This document shows positions 3,214 to 61,508 of a stretch of DNA of 64,000 bases, one piece after another (within the stretch, counting starts at the first letter, position 1; each line of letters begins with the position of its first letter). Position numbers and translations under genes: made by a program. The notes below the pieces were generated by a model. It worked only from the letters and a program-made list of their open reading frames with translations, was not told where the DNA came from and ran no database searches. This DNA is from Bradyrhizobium lablabi. GTDB lineage: Bacteria > Pseudomonadota > Alphaproteobacteria > Rhizobiales > Xanthobacteraceae. The DNA lies in assembly GCF_018129385.1 (NCBI RefSeq), contig NZ_JAFCLN010000007.1, positions 1 to 64,000 of the forward strand, written 5' to 3'.

Positions 3214-3414
3214 GTGACCAAACTTCCCGAAATTCCATCCCTGCAAGTCGGTGATCGCGTCAGGCTATCGGCACTGGGCCGGGAGCGCAGTCCGAAAATG
3301 GCGAGGACCGGACTGATCGTCCACGCGATCGGATCGAGCTTTGACGTGCTGTTGGATGGCAGCAAGTTACCGGTCCGGCTGCACCGGACCTATCTGGAGA
3401 AGGATGGCCCCTAG
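3214..3414 (+). CDS. Small beta-rich conserved protein
   Basis: The 66-residue product reads QVGDRVRLSALGRERSPKM then TGLIV...SFDVLLDGSKLPVRLHRTYLEKD, a pattern resembling a small SH3-like or KOW-like barrel. The same sequence type is common in Bradyrhizobium. The start is GTG at 3214. The TAG stop is also the first part of a family A repeat, which may supply its terminator. Function unknown. Confidence 0.6.
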   Translation: MTKLPEIPSLQVGDRVRLSALGRERSPKMARTGLIVHAIGSSFDVLLDGSKLPVRLHRTYLEKDGP

Positions 3415-3536
3415 CGCAGGATGACTTTTCTTCGAATCGTCATCCCGCTCTATCTTTTTGTTTGAGCATGATCTCCGCGCAAACGCTTCGCGTTTGTCGC
3501 AGGGAAAACCGGTATCCACTTTTCCAGATCATGCTC
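3413..3536. repeat. Bipartite palindromic repeat, family A, copy 2 (long form)
   Basis: It is nearly identical to copy 1, including the extra internal hairpin. It begins inside the stop codon of the 66-residue gene and ends just before the stop of the next convergent gene. Confidence 0.8.
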
Positions 3537-4880: not shown

Positions 4881-4992
4881 CCATCCTTCGAGACGCGCGC
4901 GATGCGCGCTCCTCAGGACGAGGTCTCGATTTGCGGCGACATAACAGACCCTCATGGTGAGGAGCCCGCAAAGCGGGCGTCTCGAACCATGC
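4881..4992. repeat. Paired palindromic repeat, family B, copy 1
   Basis: Two inverted half-elements: CCATCCTTCGAGACGC with a GC hairpin and CTCCTCAGGACGAGG (4881-4923), then CCTCATGGTGAGGAGC with its hairpin and GTCTCGAACCATG (4949-4990). The same head-to-head pair recurs at 20467, 20968, 46318, 58590 and 61377. Confidence 0.8.
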
Positions 4993-16085: not shown

Positions 16086-16177
16086 CGTCATGGCCGGGCT
16101 TGTCCCGGCCATCCACGTCGTTTTTGCGCCAAAAGCGACGAAGTCGTGGATGCCCGGGTCAAGCCCGGGCATGACGA
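16086..16177. repeat. Palindromic repeat, family E
   Basis: GTCATGGCCGGGCTTGTCCCGGCCATCCACG and CGTGGATGCCCGGGTCAAGCCCGGGCATGAC units face each other around a TTTTTGCGCCAAAAG core. It occupies the divergent intergenic region between the two DUF2147 genes. Confidence 0.7.
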
Positions 16178-19726: not shown

Positions 19727-20404
19727 ATGTTCAAGTCAGTCAAGAATTCCCGGCTCGTTGTCGCCGCCTTGGGCGCGCTGACGGTCGGTGCCATCGCTCT
19801 TTCCACTTCCGCCGCGGCCGCGCCGCTGCCGCTCTTCCCGTTCTTCCAGCAGCCGCTACAGCAGGCCGCCCCGCCGGCCCAGGTCGCGCCGTCCGACGAC
19901 GATGACGCCCCGGCTGACTTCCAGTTGCCGGCCCGCCTGAAGCGCCAGGTCGTGAACTATCCGACCCGCGAAGCGCCGGGCACCATCATCATCGATACGC
20001 CGAACACCTATCTCTACCTCGTGCTCGGCAACGGCCAGGCGATGCGCTACGGCATCGGCGTCGGCCGCGAAGGGTTTACCTGGTCGGGCACGCAGTCCAT
20101 CACCAAGAAGGCGGAATGGCCGGATTGGACCCCGCCGCCGGAGATGATCGCTCGCCAGCCCTATTTGCCGCGCCACATGGCCGGCGGCCCCGGCAACCCG
20201 CTCGGCGCCCGCGCGATGTATCTCGGCAGCAGCGTCTATCGCATCCACGGCACCAACGCACCGCACACGATCGGCACCCGCGTTTCCTCCGGCTGCCTGC
20301 GCCTCGTCAACGAAGACGTGATCGACCTCTACAGCCGCGTTCACGTCGGCACCAAGGTGATCGTGCTGCCAATGGACCGCCGTGCCGAGCTCATCGCCCG
20401 CTAA
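19727..20404 (+). CDS. L,D-transpeptidase (YkuD domain)
   Basis: The 225-residue protein has a signal peptide (about 1-32), a short acidic linker, and a YkuD catalytic domain from about residue 82 (APGTIIIDTPNTYLYLVLGNG). The active site holds His174 in YRIHGTN and Cys190 in VSSGCLRL. It forms 3-3 cross-links in peptidoglycan or attaches proteins to it, in the periplasm. Its catalytic domain closely resembles that of the larger enzyme at 54634. It is monocistronic, with the CGAAAC motif upstream and its own terminator. Confidence 0.92.
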   Translation: MFKSVKNSRLVVAALGALTVGAIALSTSAAAAPLPLFPFFQQPLQQAAPPAQVAPSDDDDAPADFQLPARLKRQVVNYPTREAPGTIIIDTPNTYLYLVLGNGQAMRYGIGVGREGFTWSGTQSITKKAEWPDWTPPPEMIARQPYLPRHMAGGPGNPLGARAMYLGSSVYRIHGTNAPHTIGTRVSSGCLRLVNEDVIDLYSRVHVGTKVIVLPMDRRAELIAR

Positions 20405-20428
20405 GTGAACCGAAGTCCAGCATGCAAG

Positions 20429-20459
20429 ATGGCGCCCCTGCGGCGCCATTTTGTTTTTT
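20429..20459 (+). terminator. Rho-independent terminator of the L,D-transpeptidase gene
   Basis: ATGGCGCC and GGCGCCAT form an 8-bp stem followed by TTTGTTTTTT, 25 bases after the stop. Confidence 0.85.
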
Positions 20460-20466
20460 GGTTTGG

Positions 20467-20632
20467 CCATCCTTCGAGACGCCCGCCTGCGGCGGGCTCC
20501 TCAGGATGAGGTCTGAGTGCTTGGCTCGTGTCGCGTGCCGCTGTCAGCGTGACTTAGCATTTGCCGAGTTGACCGCCAGCCGTTAGCCTCACCCTGAGGA
20601 GCGCGCACTTGCGCGCGTCTCGAAGGATGGGG
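20467..20632. repeat. Paired palindromic repeat, family B, copy 2
   Basis: CCATCCTTCGAGACGCCCGC...CTCCTCAGGATGAGG (20467-20513) and CCTCACCCTGAGGAGC...GTCTCGAAGGATGG (20587-20632) are inverted half-elements. Together with copy 3 they bracket the GIY-YIG gene. Confidence 0.85.
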
Positions 20633-20641
20633 CGTGTAGCG

Positions 20642-20947
20642 ATGACGGAAGGAGCGTGGCTCTACATTCTCCGATGCGCCGACGGTAGTTACTATGTCGG
20701 CACAACACGATCATCGCTTGAGATAAGAGTCGCTGAGCACAATGCGGGTACGTTCGAAGGCTACACTTCGTCGCGCAGACCGGTTGAGCTGATCTTCTCG
20801 CAATGGTTCGAACGAATAACCGACGCCATCGAAAACGAACGCAAGCTCAAGAAGTGGAGCCGTGCGAAGAAGGAAGCGTTCATTCGCGGAGACTTTGCTT
20901 CGCTTCAACAATTGGCAAAGCGCAAGTCACCGCATTCTTCGGTATAA
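20642..20947 (+). CDS. GIY-YIG domain protein (UPF0213-like)
   Basis: The 101-residue protein is a minimal GIY-YIG nuclease domain: LYILRCADGSYYVGTT (the two Tyr motifs), Arg and His in IRVAEHNAG, and the catalytic Glu in ENERKLKKWSRAKKEAF. It cuts or resembles enzymes that cut DNA; the cellular substrate of the single-domain family is not settled. ATG 20642 is chosen because upstream codons fall in the repeat. It sits exactly between two paired family B repeats, with 9 bases on the left and 20 on the right. Confidence 0.88.
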   Translation: MTEGAWLYILRCADGSYYVGTTRSSLEIRVAEHNAGTFEGYTSSRRPVELIFSQWFERITDAIENERKLKKWSRAKKEAFIRGDFASLQQLAKRKSPHSSV

Positions 20948-20967
20948 GGTGAGAGAAGCGCAAGCTG

Positions 20968-21099
20968 CCATCCTTCGAGACGCCCGCCTTCGGCGGGCTC
21001 CTCAGGATGAGGGAGAGGCTGGCTTTAATTTCAGTACACGGTAGCGGCGGCAGTAGCCTCACCCTGAGGAGCCGCGAATGCGGCGTCTCGAAGGGTGCG
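20968..21099. repeat. Paired palindromic repeat, family B, copy 3
   Basis: CCATCCTTCGAGACGCCCGC...CTCCTCAGGATGAGGG (20968-21013) and CCTCACCCTGAGGAGCCGC...GTCTCGAAGGGTGC (21057-21098). It has the same head-to-head layout and similar length as copy 2 on the other side of the GIY-YIG gene. Confidence 0.85.
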
Positions 21100-21183
21100 G
21101 CGTGGCGAGATCGAGGAACCCGCCGCCCTAGCGCCCCCCTGCCACGGCCTGTAGAATTCCCGCTGATTCAGTCCGGGGAGATG

Positions 21184-22749
21184 ATGCCGTTCAAATTGGA
21201 TCTCAAGGTGATCCTGATCGCGGTCGCGGTGGTCGGGGTTTCGTTTTTCGTCAGCCTGAAGGCCATGGACTGGTTGGCCCCGCGTGGCGGCAAGGCGCCG
21301 GTGCTGGCTGAATTGCCGCCGCTGCCGCCGGCGCCGCGCTCCTCGCGCGTGCTGGCCAATGTCGCGATCGCACTGTCGGCGATCCGCGACGCCGCCGACC
21401 GCTCCACACCGCGCGCATTTCAGGGCAAGGCCGACAACCCGGTGACGCAGGTTCTGCAAAATGCCGATATCGGCTGGACCGCCTCGCGCGGATCGATCGC
21501 CGCCAGCGGCGGCCAGGACGTCATGACGCTGTCGACGGCGCTGACGGGGACGCTCAACGTCACCGGCTCGCTATCGGCCAAAGCCACCGGCGCGGTCGGC
21601 GATGCGCTCGGCGGACTGCTCGGCAATGACGCGGCCAAGCGGATCGGCGGCATCAACATCAAGAACCTCAACGCCACCGGCGAGATCAAGGGCAACGTGG
21701 TGATCACGTCACGCCCGAAGCTGGCGGCCGCCTGGCGGATCGAGCCCAACCTCGCCGCGCAGGTGAACCTGACCGACTCCGCGCTCACGGTCGCGGGCGC
21801 GCGCGTCAACGTGCCGGCGCAGGTCAAGCCGCTGATCGACAAGAACGTCGCCGAGCAGCTTGCGATCGTGCAGGCGCGCATGAAGAACGATCCGGCGCTG
21901 GAGCAGAATGCACGCATCCAATGGGCAAAGGCCTGCCGCTCCATTCCGCTACAGGGCGCCAGCCCTGCCGGCTCGATGCCGGCGCTCTGGCTGGAGCTGA
22001 AACCGACCCGCGCGATCGCGGCACAGCCGCGCGTCGATGCTGCCGCCGTCACGGTGACCATGGGCATCGAGGCCGAGACCCGCGTCACGCCGGCCGAGAC
22101 CAAGCCGAACTGCCCGTTCCCGGCCACCATCAGCATCGTGCCCCCGACCCCGGGCGGCGTCGCGATCGGCGTGCCGATCGACATGCCCTTTACCGAGCTC
22201 AACAAGCTGCTCAACAGCCAGTTCGCCGGAAAGACGTTTCCTGAAGATGGTTCGGGGCCGGTGGACGTGACCGTGAAGAGCGCGAGTCTGGCGGCCTCCG
22301 GCAACCGGCTGCTGATTTCGCTGCTGGTCTACGCCAAGGAGAAGACAAGCTATCTCGGCCTCGGCGCCGAAGCCTATGTCCATATCTGGGGCGTGCCGGT
22401 GCTCGACCAGGCGCAGCAGACGCTGCGGCTGACCGACATCGAGCTTGCGGTGGAATCCGAAGCGGCGTTCGGACTGTTAGGGGCCGCAGCGCGCGCGGCG
22501 GTGCCGCATCTACAGCGGGCGCTGGCCGAGCGGGCGGTGATCGACCTGAAACCGTTTGCGGACAATGCGCGCAAGAAGATCGCGGCCGTCATATCAGACC
22601 TGCGGCAGACCGATGACAGCGTGCGGGTGGCGGCCGAAATCTCCAGCCTGCGGCTGGCCGAAATTGCGTTTGATTCAAAGACACTGCGCGTGATCGCGGA
22701 ATCCGAGGGCACGATCAGCGTCAACATCTCCGCCCTGCCGGGGCTGTGA
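21184..22749 (+). CDS. DUF4403 family membrane-anchored protein
   Basis: The 521-residue protein begins with one transmembrane segment (LDLKVILIAVAVVGVSFFV). A large periplasmic DUF4403 region follows, made of repeating beta-strand stretches (AALTGTLNVTGSLSAKATG, WRIEPNLAAQVNLTDSALTVAGARV, KPNCPFPATISIVPP, IGVPIDMPFTELNKLL). The design recalls BPI/SMP-like lipid-binding proteins, but no function is established. ATG 21184 is preferred to 21181 because GGGGAG abuts the earlier one. It runs convergently with the dodecin gene. Confidence 0.8.
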   Translation: MPFKLDLKVILIAVAVVGVSFFVSLKAMDWLAPRGGKAPVLAELPPLPPAPRSSRVLANVAIALSAIRDAADRSTPRAFQGKADNPVTQVLQNADIGWTASRGSIAASGGQDVMTLSTALTGTLNVTGSLSAKATGAVGDALGGLLGNDAAKRIGGINIKNLNATGEIKGNVVITSRPKLAAAWRIEPNLAAQVNLTDSALTVAGARVNVPAQVKPLIDKNVAEQLAIVQARMKNDPALEQNARIQWAKACRSIPLQGASPAGSMPALWLELKPTRAIAAQPRVDAAAVTVTMGIEAETRVTPAETKPNCPFPATISIVPPTPGGVAIGVPIDMPFTELNKLLNSQFAGKTFPEDGSGPVDVTVKSASLAASGNRLLISLLVYAKEKTSYLGLGAEAYVHIWGVPVLDQAQQTLRLTDIELAVESEAAFGLLGAAARAAVPHLQRALAERAVIDLKPFADNARKKIAAVISDLRQTDDSVRVAAEISSLRLAEIAFDSKTLRVIAESEGTISVNISALPGL

Positions 22750-28659: not shown

Positions 28660-28779
28660 GTCGTCCCTGCGAAAGCAGGGACCCATAACCACCGGCCGGT
28701 GTGGTTACGAGAGGTATCTGCCAGTGTGCCTCAAGAGACATCACGCGGTATGGATCCCGGCTTTCGCCGGGATGACGGA
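28660..28779. repeat. Palindromic repeat, family D, inside the thi operon
   Basis: CGTCCCTGCGAAAGCAGGGACCC at the left and GGATCCCGGCTTTCGCCGGGATGACG at the right bound about 120 bases with an ACCGGCCGGTGTGG inner palindrome. A frame is open through it, but codon use and sequence match the repeats, not a protein. Confidence 0.7.
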
Positions 28780-28809
28780 ATGGGGCACGCACGCGCCTCA
28801 CACTCCGCC

Positions 28810-28911
28810 GTCATCGCCCGGCTTGACCGGGCGATCCAGTACGCCGCGGCTTCTCGATTCGATCGCGCGGCCTCTGGAATACTGGATCCCCGCCTTCGCG
28901 GGGATGACGAC
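28810..28911. repeat. Composite palindromic repeat, family C, copy 2
   Basis: GTCATCGCCCGGCTTGACC..., CCAGTACGCCGCGGCTTCTCG and CTCTGGAATACTGGATC, ending GGGGATGACG. It shares its inner block with copies at 9373 and 43717. It lies between thiS and thiG. Confidence 0.8.
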
Positions 28912-43716: not shown

Positions 43717-43820
43717 CGTCATACCCCGCGAAGGCGGGGTATCCAGTACGCCGCGGCTTCTCAGATCGCTCGCTGATCTCTCTGGAATACTGGATCGCCC
43801 GCCTTCGCGGGCGATGACGA
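43717..43820. repeat. Composite palindromic repeat, family C, copy 3
   Basis: GTCATACCCCGCGAAGGCGGGGT, CCAGTACGCCGCGGCTTCTC, CTCTGGAATACTGGATCG and GGCGATGACG. It shares the inner block with copies at 9373 and 28810. It lies just past the bfr stop between convergent genes. Confidence 0.8.
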
Positions 43821-46317: not shown

Positions 46318-46458
46318 CCTCATCCTGAGGAGCGGCCACTTGGCCGCGTCTCGAAGGATGAAGGCCCGGCTGTGGCCTCATGGTTCGAGACGCGCCAACG
46401 GGTCCGCGCGAAGCGCGGCCCGATGATAAACTCCGACGCGCTCCTCACCGTGAGGAGC
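46318..46458. repeat. Paired palindromic repeat, family B, copy 4
   Basis: CCTCATCCTGAGGAGC...GTCTCGAAGGATG then CCTCATGGTTCGAGACGCG...CTCCTCACCGTGAGGAG. It has the same half-elements as other family B copies, with a longer middle. Confidence 0.75.
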
Positions 46459-57990: not shown

Positions 57991-58164
57991 CGTCATTCCG
58001 GGACGCGCCGCTTGGCGCGGGCCTGGAATCCATACGCCGGGGCCGTAGTTGTTTCGAACATTGGTTGACGGCTTTCTTTGAACCAACGACCGATCGTGGT
58101 TATGGATTCTCAGATGCGCAATTGCGCATCATAGCTCGCGACTTTGTCGCGCCCGGAATGACGG
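57991..58164. repeat. Palindromic repeat, family H
   Basis: CGTCATTCCGGGACGCGCCGC...TGGAATCCATA and TATGGATTCTCAGATGCG...CGCGCCCGGAATGACG are long inverted arms (about 45 bases each) around a less conserved core. It sits between two sulfurtransferase genes. Confidence 0.75.
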
Positions 58165-58589: not shown

Positions 58590-58688
58590 CCTCATCCTGA
58601 GGAGCCGCGAAGCGGCGTCTCGAAGGATGCAGGCCCGTCTGTGGCCTCATGGTTCGAGAAGCGCTTCGCGCTCCTCACCATGAGGGTC
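58590..58688. repeat. Paired palindromic repeat, family B, copy 5
   Basis: CCTCATCCTGAGGAGCCGC...GTCTCGAAGGATG then CCTCATGGTTCGAGAAGC...CTCCTCACCATGAGG. It lies between the rhodanese and VWA genes. Confidence 0.8.
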
Positions 58689-59910: not shown

Positions 59911-59969
59911 GACGTACAGATTGCCCGCCGGACCCGCGCCGTCAAGGGCTTGCGGCCGATTTGCGGTGA

Positions 59970-60068
59970 GAGCGGGATGACTTTTCTTCGAAACGTCATC
60001 CCGCTCTATCTTTCTGTTTGAGCATGATCTTCTCGGAAAACCGGTATCCACTTTTCCGGATCATGCTC
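59970..60068. repeat. Bipartite palindromic repeat, family A, copy 6 (short form)
   Basis: AGCGGGATGAC...GTCATCCCGCT then GAGCATGATC...GATCATGCTC, matching copy 3 in layout. It lies in the divergent intergenic region between the VWA and YeaQ-type genes. Confidence 0.8.
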
Positions 60069-61376: not shown

Positions 61377-61508
61377 CCTCATGGTGAGGAGCCTGCTACG
61401 GGCCGCGCGTCGCGCGGCTCGTTGCGGGCGTCTCGAACCATGAAGGCCCGGCTACCGCCCGTGGCCATCCTTCGAGACGCCGCGAAGACGCGGCTCCTCA
61501 GGATGAGG
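61377..61508. repeat. Paired palindromic repeat, family B, copy 6
   Basis: CTCCTCATGGTGAGGAGC...GTCTCGAACCATG then CCATCCTTCGAGACGCCGCG...CTCCTCAGGATGAGG. It is convergent with the following minus-strand gene, whose stop codon (61498-61500) and last residues come from the repeat. Confidence 0.82.

Follow-up and report, generated by a model that had tools for sequence, protein, structure and literature searches.

The window analysed here (64,000 nucleotides of Bradyrhizobium lablabi DNA, contig NZ_JAFCLN010000007.1) carries, between a YkuD (L,D-transpeptidase) gene and a DUF4403 gene, a small gene for a GIY-YIG nuclease with two palindromic repeats on either side of it, all four belonging to one family referred to here as family B (Table 1). 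This arrangement had been recognised in a preliminary description made from the sequence, and both the domain match and the limits of the elements confirm it. The preliminary description had put the inner repeats 9 and 20 bases from the gene; their closeness holds, but by the element limits used here the distances are 12 and 21 bases. The protein matches PF01541 with 61.4 bits (cut-off 22.6, E = 1e-16), this being the only domain matched; the domain search gave no tyrosine-transposase domain of the IS200/IS605 kind in it, and NCBIfam gave no match to it. The DUF4403 gene was matched in 59 of 60 genomes of the genus.

Table 1. Genes and family B repeats of the window (positions are those of the window;. 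indicates a pair or no single strand)
Feature	Position	Strand	Remarks
Family B pair without gene	4882..4991	.	Tags inward; oriented like the pairs beside the gene
YkuD (L,D-transpeptidase) gene	19727..20404	+	PF03734; conserved left (upstream) neighbour of the unit, by synteny
Outer left family B REP	20468..20509	+	Hairpin z -3.6
Inner left family B REP	20589..20629	-	Tag (CCTC) away from gene; weakest fold of the four, z -2.2
Single-domain GIY-YIG nuclease gene	20642..20947	+	101 aa; PF01541; ATG at 20642, stop ends 20947
Inner right family B REP	20969..21010	+	Tag away from gene; hairpin z -4.7
Outer right family B REP	21059..21097	-	Hairpin z -4.2
DUF4403 gene	21181..22749	+	PF14356; right (downstream) neighbour; start codon chosen by hand
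Family B element without gene	46320..46360	-	Variant tag-outward partner begins at 46379, read by eye
Family B pair without gene	58592..58683	.	Tags outward; paired change between the two stems (CATCCT/AGGATG in one, CATGGT/ACCATG in the other)
Family B pair without gene	61379..61506	.	Tags outward; paired stem change here too (CATCCT/AGGATG to CATGGT/ACCATG)

In an alignment of 55 nuclease sequences residues Y18, G20, R29, H33, E66, K70 and W72 are invariant and Y8 is nearly so; of these, Y18, R29, H33 and E66, together with Y8, stand at the catalytic motif positions of the GIY-YIG domain. The median dN/dS in the near clade is 0.093 over 41 pairs (those with dS under 2, drawn from 12 genes), a rough value with dS near saturation. 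The enzyme looks functional, its catalytic residues being conserved and the gene under purifying selection. In a fold comparison, a structure model of the protein, whose quality is modest (pLDDT 69.7), had its best matches in UPF0213 structures, followed by Slx1, and the best matches among solved sequences are likewise UPF0213 GIY-YIG proteins, 1ywl and 1zg2 (E 3e-12 and 4e-9), which, unlike the window protein, come from Enterococcus and Bacillus. In several relatives of the B1 subgroup, to which the window gene belongs (L037, L009, L044 and others), the nuclease frame ends inside the right repeat, from which its final dozen residues (PSRRPP...GSSG or similar) and its stop codon are read.

The family B element is a bulged hairpin of about 42 bases with a variable inner stem. 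When folding was compared with that of shuffled sequence, three of the four hairpins at the gene locus lay well beyond it (z -3.6 to -4.7) and the fourth had a z of -2.2. If > denotes the strand reading CATCCTTCGAGACGC...CTCCTCAGGATGAGG, the order at the locus is > < gene > <. The window has 12 occurrences of the family's 15-base 5' motif at up to 2 mismatches (expected 0.29) and 13 of the 3' motif (expected 0.05). The strict palindrome is present in 107 copies in the 7.24 Mb genome (119 when a second pattern is added) and the family was found in 53 of the 60 genus genomes; Rfam gave no match across 20400-21200. Among the 77 of the 107 strict elements that were examined, 76 have an inner stem of 5 or more perfect pairs, of which the search pattern itself fixes 2, and 19 different stems are represented, while the paired changes in Table 1 affect the outer stem of two gene-less pairs (58592-58683 and 61379-61506, with gaps of 18 and 23). 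As the inner stems vary yet stay complementary, and the outer stems change in pairs, it is the hairpin that is kept. Seven of the eight close pairs found outside the gene locus among these elements are tag-outward (< >) with gaps of 21-36, and the gene with its two inner repeats has this same usual layout, the gene replacing the spacer. The same pairs had been said to occur alone at four other places in the window; the four places do lack the gene, but only 4882-4991 has the orientation of the pairs beside it, the others being tag-outward. A family B relative from the same order but a different family (L204, genome G063) carries a repeat with the stem ATGCT/AGCAT instead of ATCCT/AGGAT, a paired change as judged by eye.

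The window also contains REPs of the CGTC type, of several kinds (GGCC, GCCCGG, xCCGCG and TTCCGGG), at 16086-16176, 28751-28909, 43717-43819 and 57991-58032, and another palindrome-bearing repeat family (GATGACTTTTCTTCGAA..CGTCATC) at 731-801, 3413-3483 and 59969-60039; of these three copies one served as reference and the others have 90-92% identity to it. There are six PF01541 places in the genome, namely the window gene, L001, L003, L004, L005 and L006. L003, L004 and L006 adjoin CGTC-type repeats, the types that adjoin GIY-YIG genes in this genome being GCCCGG, xCCGCG and TTCCGGG; neither these PF01541 places nor a score-based search revealed a GGCC-type nuclease, despite 43 strict GGCC copies. 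L005, a 696-codon frame without family B, is taken for UvrC. L001, a UPF0213-like GIY-YIG gene of 90 residues, adjoins a tRNA-Ala gene (L001:1849-1924) and has no REPs, and near it lies a different long palindrome (CCACGCTTCACCCTTC..GAAGGGTGAAGCGTGG).

Loci of related nucleases were examined to the number of 128, of which 119 are distinct (L007 and L076 are second fetches and seven proteins from a second collection are identical to others). The B clade consists of 65 loci with proteins at least 50% identical to the window protein, and the 63 non-B loci are a sample among the matches listed. Family B was present within 300 bp of the gene at 64 of the 65 B-clade loci and at none of the 63 other single-domain GIY-YIG loci, and the search pattern for the CGTC repeat gave no match at those 64. 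In the sole B-clade exception, L063 of a Kiloniellales assembly, the two flanks share an untyped repeat (score 40). The same one of six other REP types, CGTC-tagged or similar, was found on both sides of the gene at 48 of the 63 non-B loci, and a repeat on one side at 12, where the background is 13-19%; two more (L099 and L105) carry a CGTC repeat by a separate CGTC pattern, and L001 is the only one of the 63 with neither family B nor any other typed REP nearby. The main random control was drawn from this window alone, and in-locus controls were run separately. At 2941 random window positions family B occurred on at least one side 133 times and on both sides never (145 and 0 for CGTC). Repeats of the same type on both sides were found at 17 of 2927 random positions in the window and 0 of 660 within the loci, and a match to at least one of the eight type patterns, on whichever side, at 565 of 2927 and 87 of 660 respectively. 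Two-sided matches are therefore strong and one-sided matches weaker. Within the B1 subgroup (41 distinct loci) family B lies only upstream at 13 loci, only downstream at 2 and on neither side at 1; where it is only upstream it is typically a whole < > pair. Several relatives in other clades have the layout tag-repeat-gene-repeat-tag. The enrichment of repeats beside GIY-YIG genes over random positions, the lack of which had been named beforehand as grounds for abandoning the idea, is thus present.

The repeat type was then set against a tree of 105 of the 128 nucleases (duplicates, fragments, rows with stop codons, L001 and L006 being left out), with nine labels; those of L099 and L105 were set by hand from the CGTC pattern and L063 was entered as unknown. 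Only 12 changes of repeat type are needed on this tree (the minimum is 8), compared with a mean of 64.4 when labels were shuffled, and none of 200 shuffles gave a number as low. All family B rows together with L063 fall on one side of a 100/100 branch, and the GGCC, CCCTGCG, TTCCGGG and CCCGGAC labels are each confined to one side of a starred branch, while xCCGCG and GCCCGG are mixed inside one clade; it should be noted that the tree is built from few columns and has long branches, of which the program warned. These results show that repeat type follows nuclease clade, that is, the association is cognate and the two have diversified together.

Copy numbers in the 60 genus genomes were compared according to which nuclease is present, presence being set by score, with broken copies counted as present and a partial GGCC-like match in G003 excluded. 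Without correction for ancestry, the median number of B1 repeats is 27 in the 15 genomes with a B1 nuclease and 9 in the 45 without (P = 0.004, or 0.009 when the genome of the window is removed), and that of B2 repeats is 23 in the 12 genomes with a B2 nuclease and 1 in the 48 without (P = 2.6e-6); B2 repeats are absent from none of these 12 and from 21 of the 48. None of the six mismatched combinations of repeat and nuclease gave a link with copy number (P 0.43-0.83). Within family B, copy number therefore rises only with the matching nuclease. For GGCC repeats and their own nuclease the medians were 25 and 19 (P = 0.14), so that the rule is not general in this test, and some genomes in which the search found no B1 nuclease are rich in repeats all the same (127 in G027 and 79 in G043).

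Beyond the genus, 15 loci in other families of the order were compared, and at 10 of them the two flanks share repeats; L203 and L204 are weak as random positions in the same locus also score high (212 and 68). At the remaining 5 of the 15 there was no shared flanking repeat. Across the class a relative of the nuclease was found in 73 of 190 genomes, and 19 of 29 loci share flanking repeats at or above a score of 18, compared with 11 of 552 in-locus controls; 10 of the 29 lie below that score, and among the 19 that reach it the shared repeats are in some cases not clearly of the CGTC type.

From all this we think it probable that the gene encodes a repeat-cognate single-domain GIY-YIG nuclease, the most likely substrate being the folded single strand of family B, a longer and bulged relative of the CGTC REPs, and that it sits inside a tag-outward pair, pair and gene forming a self-sufficient unit of which the short scattered pairs are gene-less forms. 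The nuclease would recognise the family B hairpin when the DNA is single-stranded, during replication, repair or DNA uptake, and would nick it near the tag, and repair or copying after the nick would then keep or spread the repeats. Both the cutting of the hairpin and the spread of the repeats by the nuclease are steps that we infer.

The history of the unit was followed at its own site and elsewhere. Seven other genomes also have the unit downstream of YkuD, in every case accompanied by family B, and 3 of those 7 gene copies are damaged (that of G020, and those of G017 and G058, which have an in-frame TAG). Among 30 DUF4403 loci YkuD is in the same stretch in 15, and 2 of these have the unit (gaps 780 and 862 bp), while the other 13 have neither the gene nor, by pattern, family B (gaps 151-300 bp). 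The proposal that the gene might be syntenic everywhere without repeats is contradicted by these two sets of sites. The YkuD-DUF4403 site of G025 lacks the gene and has just one > < pair, its two flanks corresponding to those of gene-bearing relatives (the right flank and repeat having been aligned). Recombination between direct repeats, removing the gene together with one pair, would account for this site, and gain fits it no better than such a loss. For the B2 copy of G014 no empty site with both flanks was found: its left flank was matched in ten relatives (E below 1e-50), but the ten loci examined all lacked the right one. B1 copies are present in 15 of the 60 genomes (14 besides that of the window), with damage in several: an in-frame TAG interrupts L011 and L016, only a remnant is left of L030, and L025 and L029 are each split in two. 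Several nuclease types coexist within one genome, and G013, G014 and G046 each have two B2-clade genes. From the far end of the nearest repeat on one side to that on the other, B2 units measure 460-463 bp at 7 of 15 loci, in about five places as judged by eye. In six B2 units (L019, L021, L070, L071, L073 and L074) a sequence resembling TTGACA lies some 20 bases beyond the left repeat, on its outer side, and may be a promoter belonging to the unit. In the window's clade the gene appears to have been passed on mainly vertically and mostly at one site, and the seven YkuD copies fit plain inheritance, not jumping. The idea that the unit always jumps was rejected because this clade is syntenic at YkuD.

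The vertical inheritance downstream of YkuD and the signs of purifying selection would also be expected if the nuclease were a host enzyme, now domesticated, for which the repeats serve as landmarks, for instance in limiting the uptake or recombination of single-stranded DNA, with no spreading involved; the landmark carried by the gene itself would then keep gene and repeats together. A GIY-YIG nuclease, Ssn, reportedly has an effect on natural transformation in Neisseria, which would agree with such a role. However, the B1 gene is found in only 15 of the 60 genomes, several of its copies are broken and several nuclease types coexist per genome, and patchiness and decay of this kind are more in keeping with a dispensable or selfish element than with a host enzyme. 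We regard the host role as possible but rather doubtful.

It is unlikely that the repeats act only on expression of the gene, as a terminator, a ribosome-site hairpin or a message-stabilising hairpin, REPs being common beside genes anyway. The right repeats that encode the C-terminus and stop codon in several B1 copies could be seen in this light, as could the report that REPs lie mostly downstream of genes (PMC3733652), but an effect on expression leaves unexplained both the clade-specific repeat type and the 48 of 63 loci with the same type on both sides (compared with 0 of 660 and 17 of 2927 random positions). Chance, or a hotspot in which insertion-tolerant intergenic sites gather repeats and small genes, was rejected as very improbable: several units do directly follow what look by eye like terminator hairpins of the gene upstream, but the random-position controls, the two-sided counts, the clade-specific pairing on the tree and the lack of family B at all 63 non-B genes, when it is present in 53 of 60 genomes, contradict it.

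A unit of cognate nuclease and repeats bears directly on the CGTC REPs. In the survey by Di Nocera et al. (2013, PMC3733652) these repeats are defined by a CGTC tag (with CCTC variants noted), AT at the stem start and stems of 8-9 bp; they are mainly alphaproteobacterial, CGTC-1 and CGTC-3 being listed for Bradyrhizobium, they have no dedicated transposase and are not associated with transposase genes, and what moves them was left open. The term 'GIY-YIG' is absent from the text of PMC3733652. Compared with the text of the survey, family B has in common with CGTC REPs the tag (CGTC in B2, CCTC in B1), the AT-starting stem, the pairing of elements and the alphaproteobacterial distribution. For an unpaired end tag of CGTC, TGTC or CCTC followed by AT, B2 reads CGTCATCC and B1 reads CCTCATCC (the repeats start with CGTCATCCTGAGG and CCTCATCCTGAGG respectively), and the end away from the tag, where a CGTC REP would have a short unpaired tail matching CCA, has GGATG and then variable bases. 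The family B hairpins differ in being longer and bulged, with a variable inner stem, and as a hairpin of about 42 bases falls outside a stem of 8-9 bp with a loop of 4-5, we call family B CGTC-like and not a member; the CCCTGCG and CCCGGAC types are also only CGTC-like, in tag or stem start. Since CGTC repeats are reported in that survey to lack a dedicated transposase, and the pairing described here is cognate, we propose this nuclease family as their partner. No paper joining GIY-YIG with these repeats was found among titles and counts in the open-licence literature, a scope that makes this result a weak one. The findings suggest that these enzymes are the partners of a repeat class thought to have none. 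With a cognate enzyme for each repeat type, the question of what moves CGTC palindromes can be put to direct test, and a collection of small nucleases becomes available, each with its natural hairpin target.

Two known systems invite comparison. Ssn, described in Nature Communications in 2025, is reportedly a GIY-YIG family that cuts single-stranded DNA site-specifically at a repeated sequence; that work would lend support to single-strand cutting by this fold. Like the window protein, Ssn is reportedly a small single-domain GIY-YIG protein tied to a repeated sequence, and the published Ssn family probably covers part of the present finding. The second is the RAYT, or REPtron, with REP-associated transposases having been the analogy drawn in the preliminary description. 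That analogy is upheld in part, namely for the association, the co-diversification and the cognate copy number of family B: as with RAYTs, a low-copy nuclease gene lies beside its own cognate REP, the repeat type is tied to the enzyme and follows the protein clade, and gene-less pairs occur elsewhere. The difference is that the window nuclease has a GIY-YIG domain and no tyrosine-transposase domain. We therefore put forward, tentatively and as somewhat short of probable, that a second and independent kind of REP-spreading element is found across the Alphaproteobacteria in the form of single-domain GIY-YIG genes lying within CGTC-type pairs; its repeat specificity would change from one nuclease clade to the next, and the nuclease would play the role that tyrosine transposases have for GTAG repeats.
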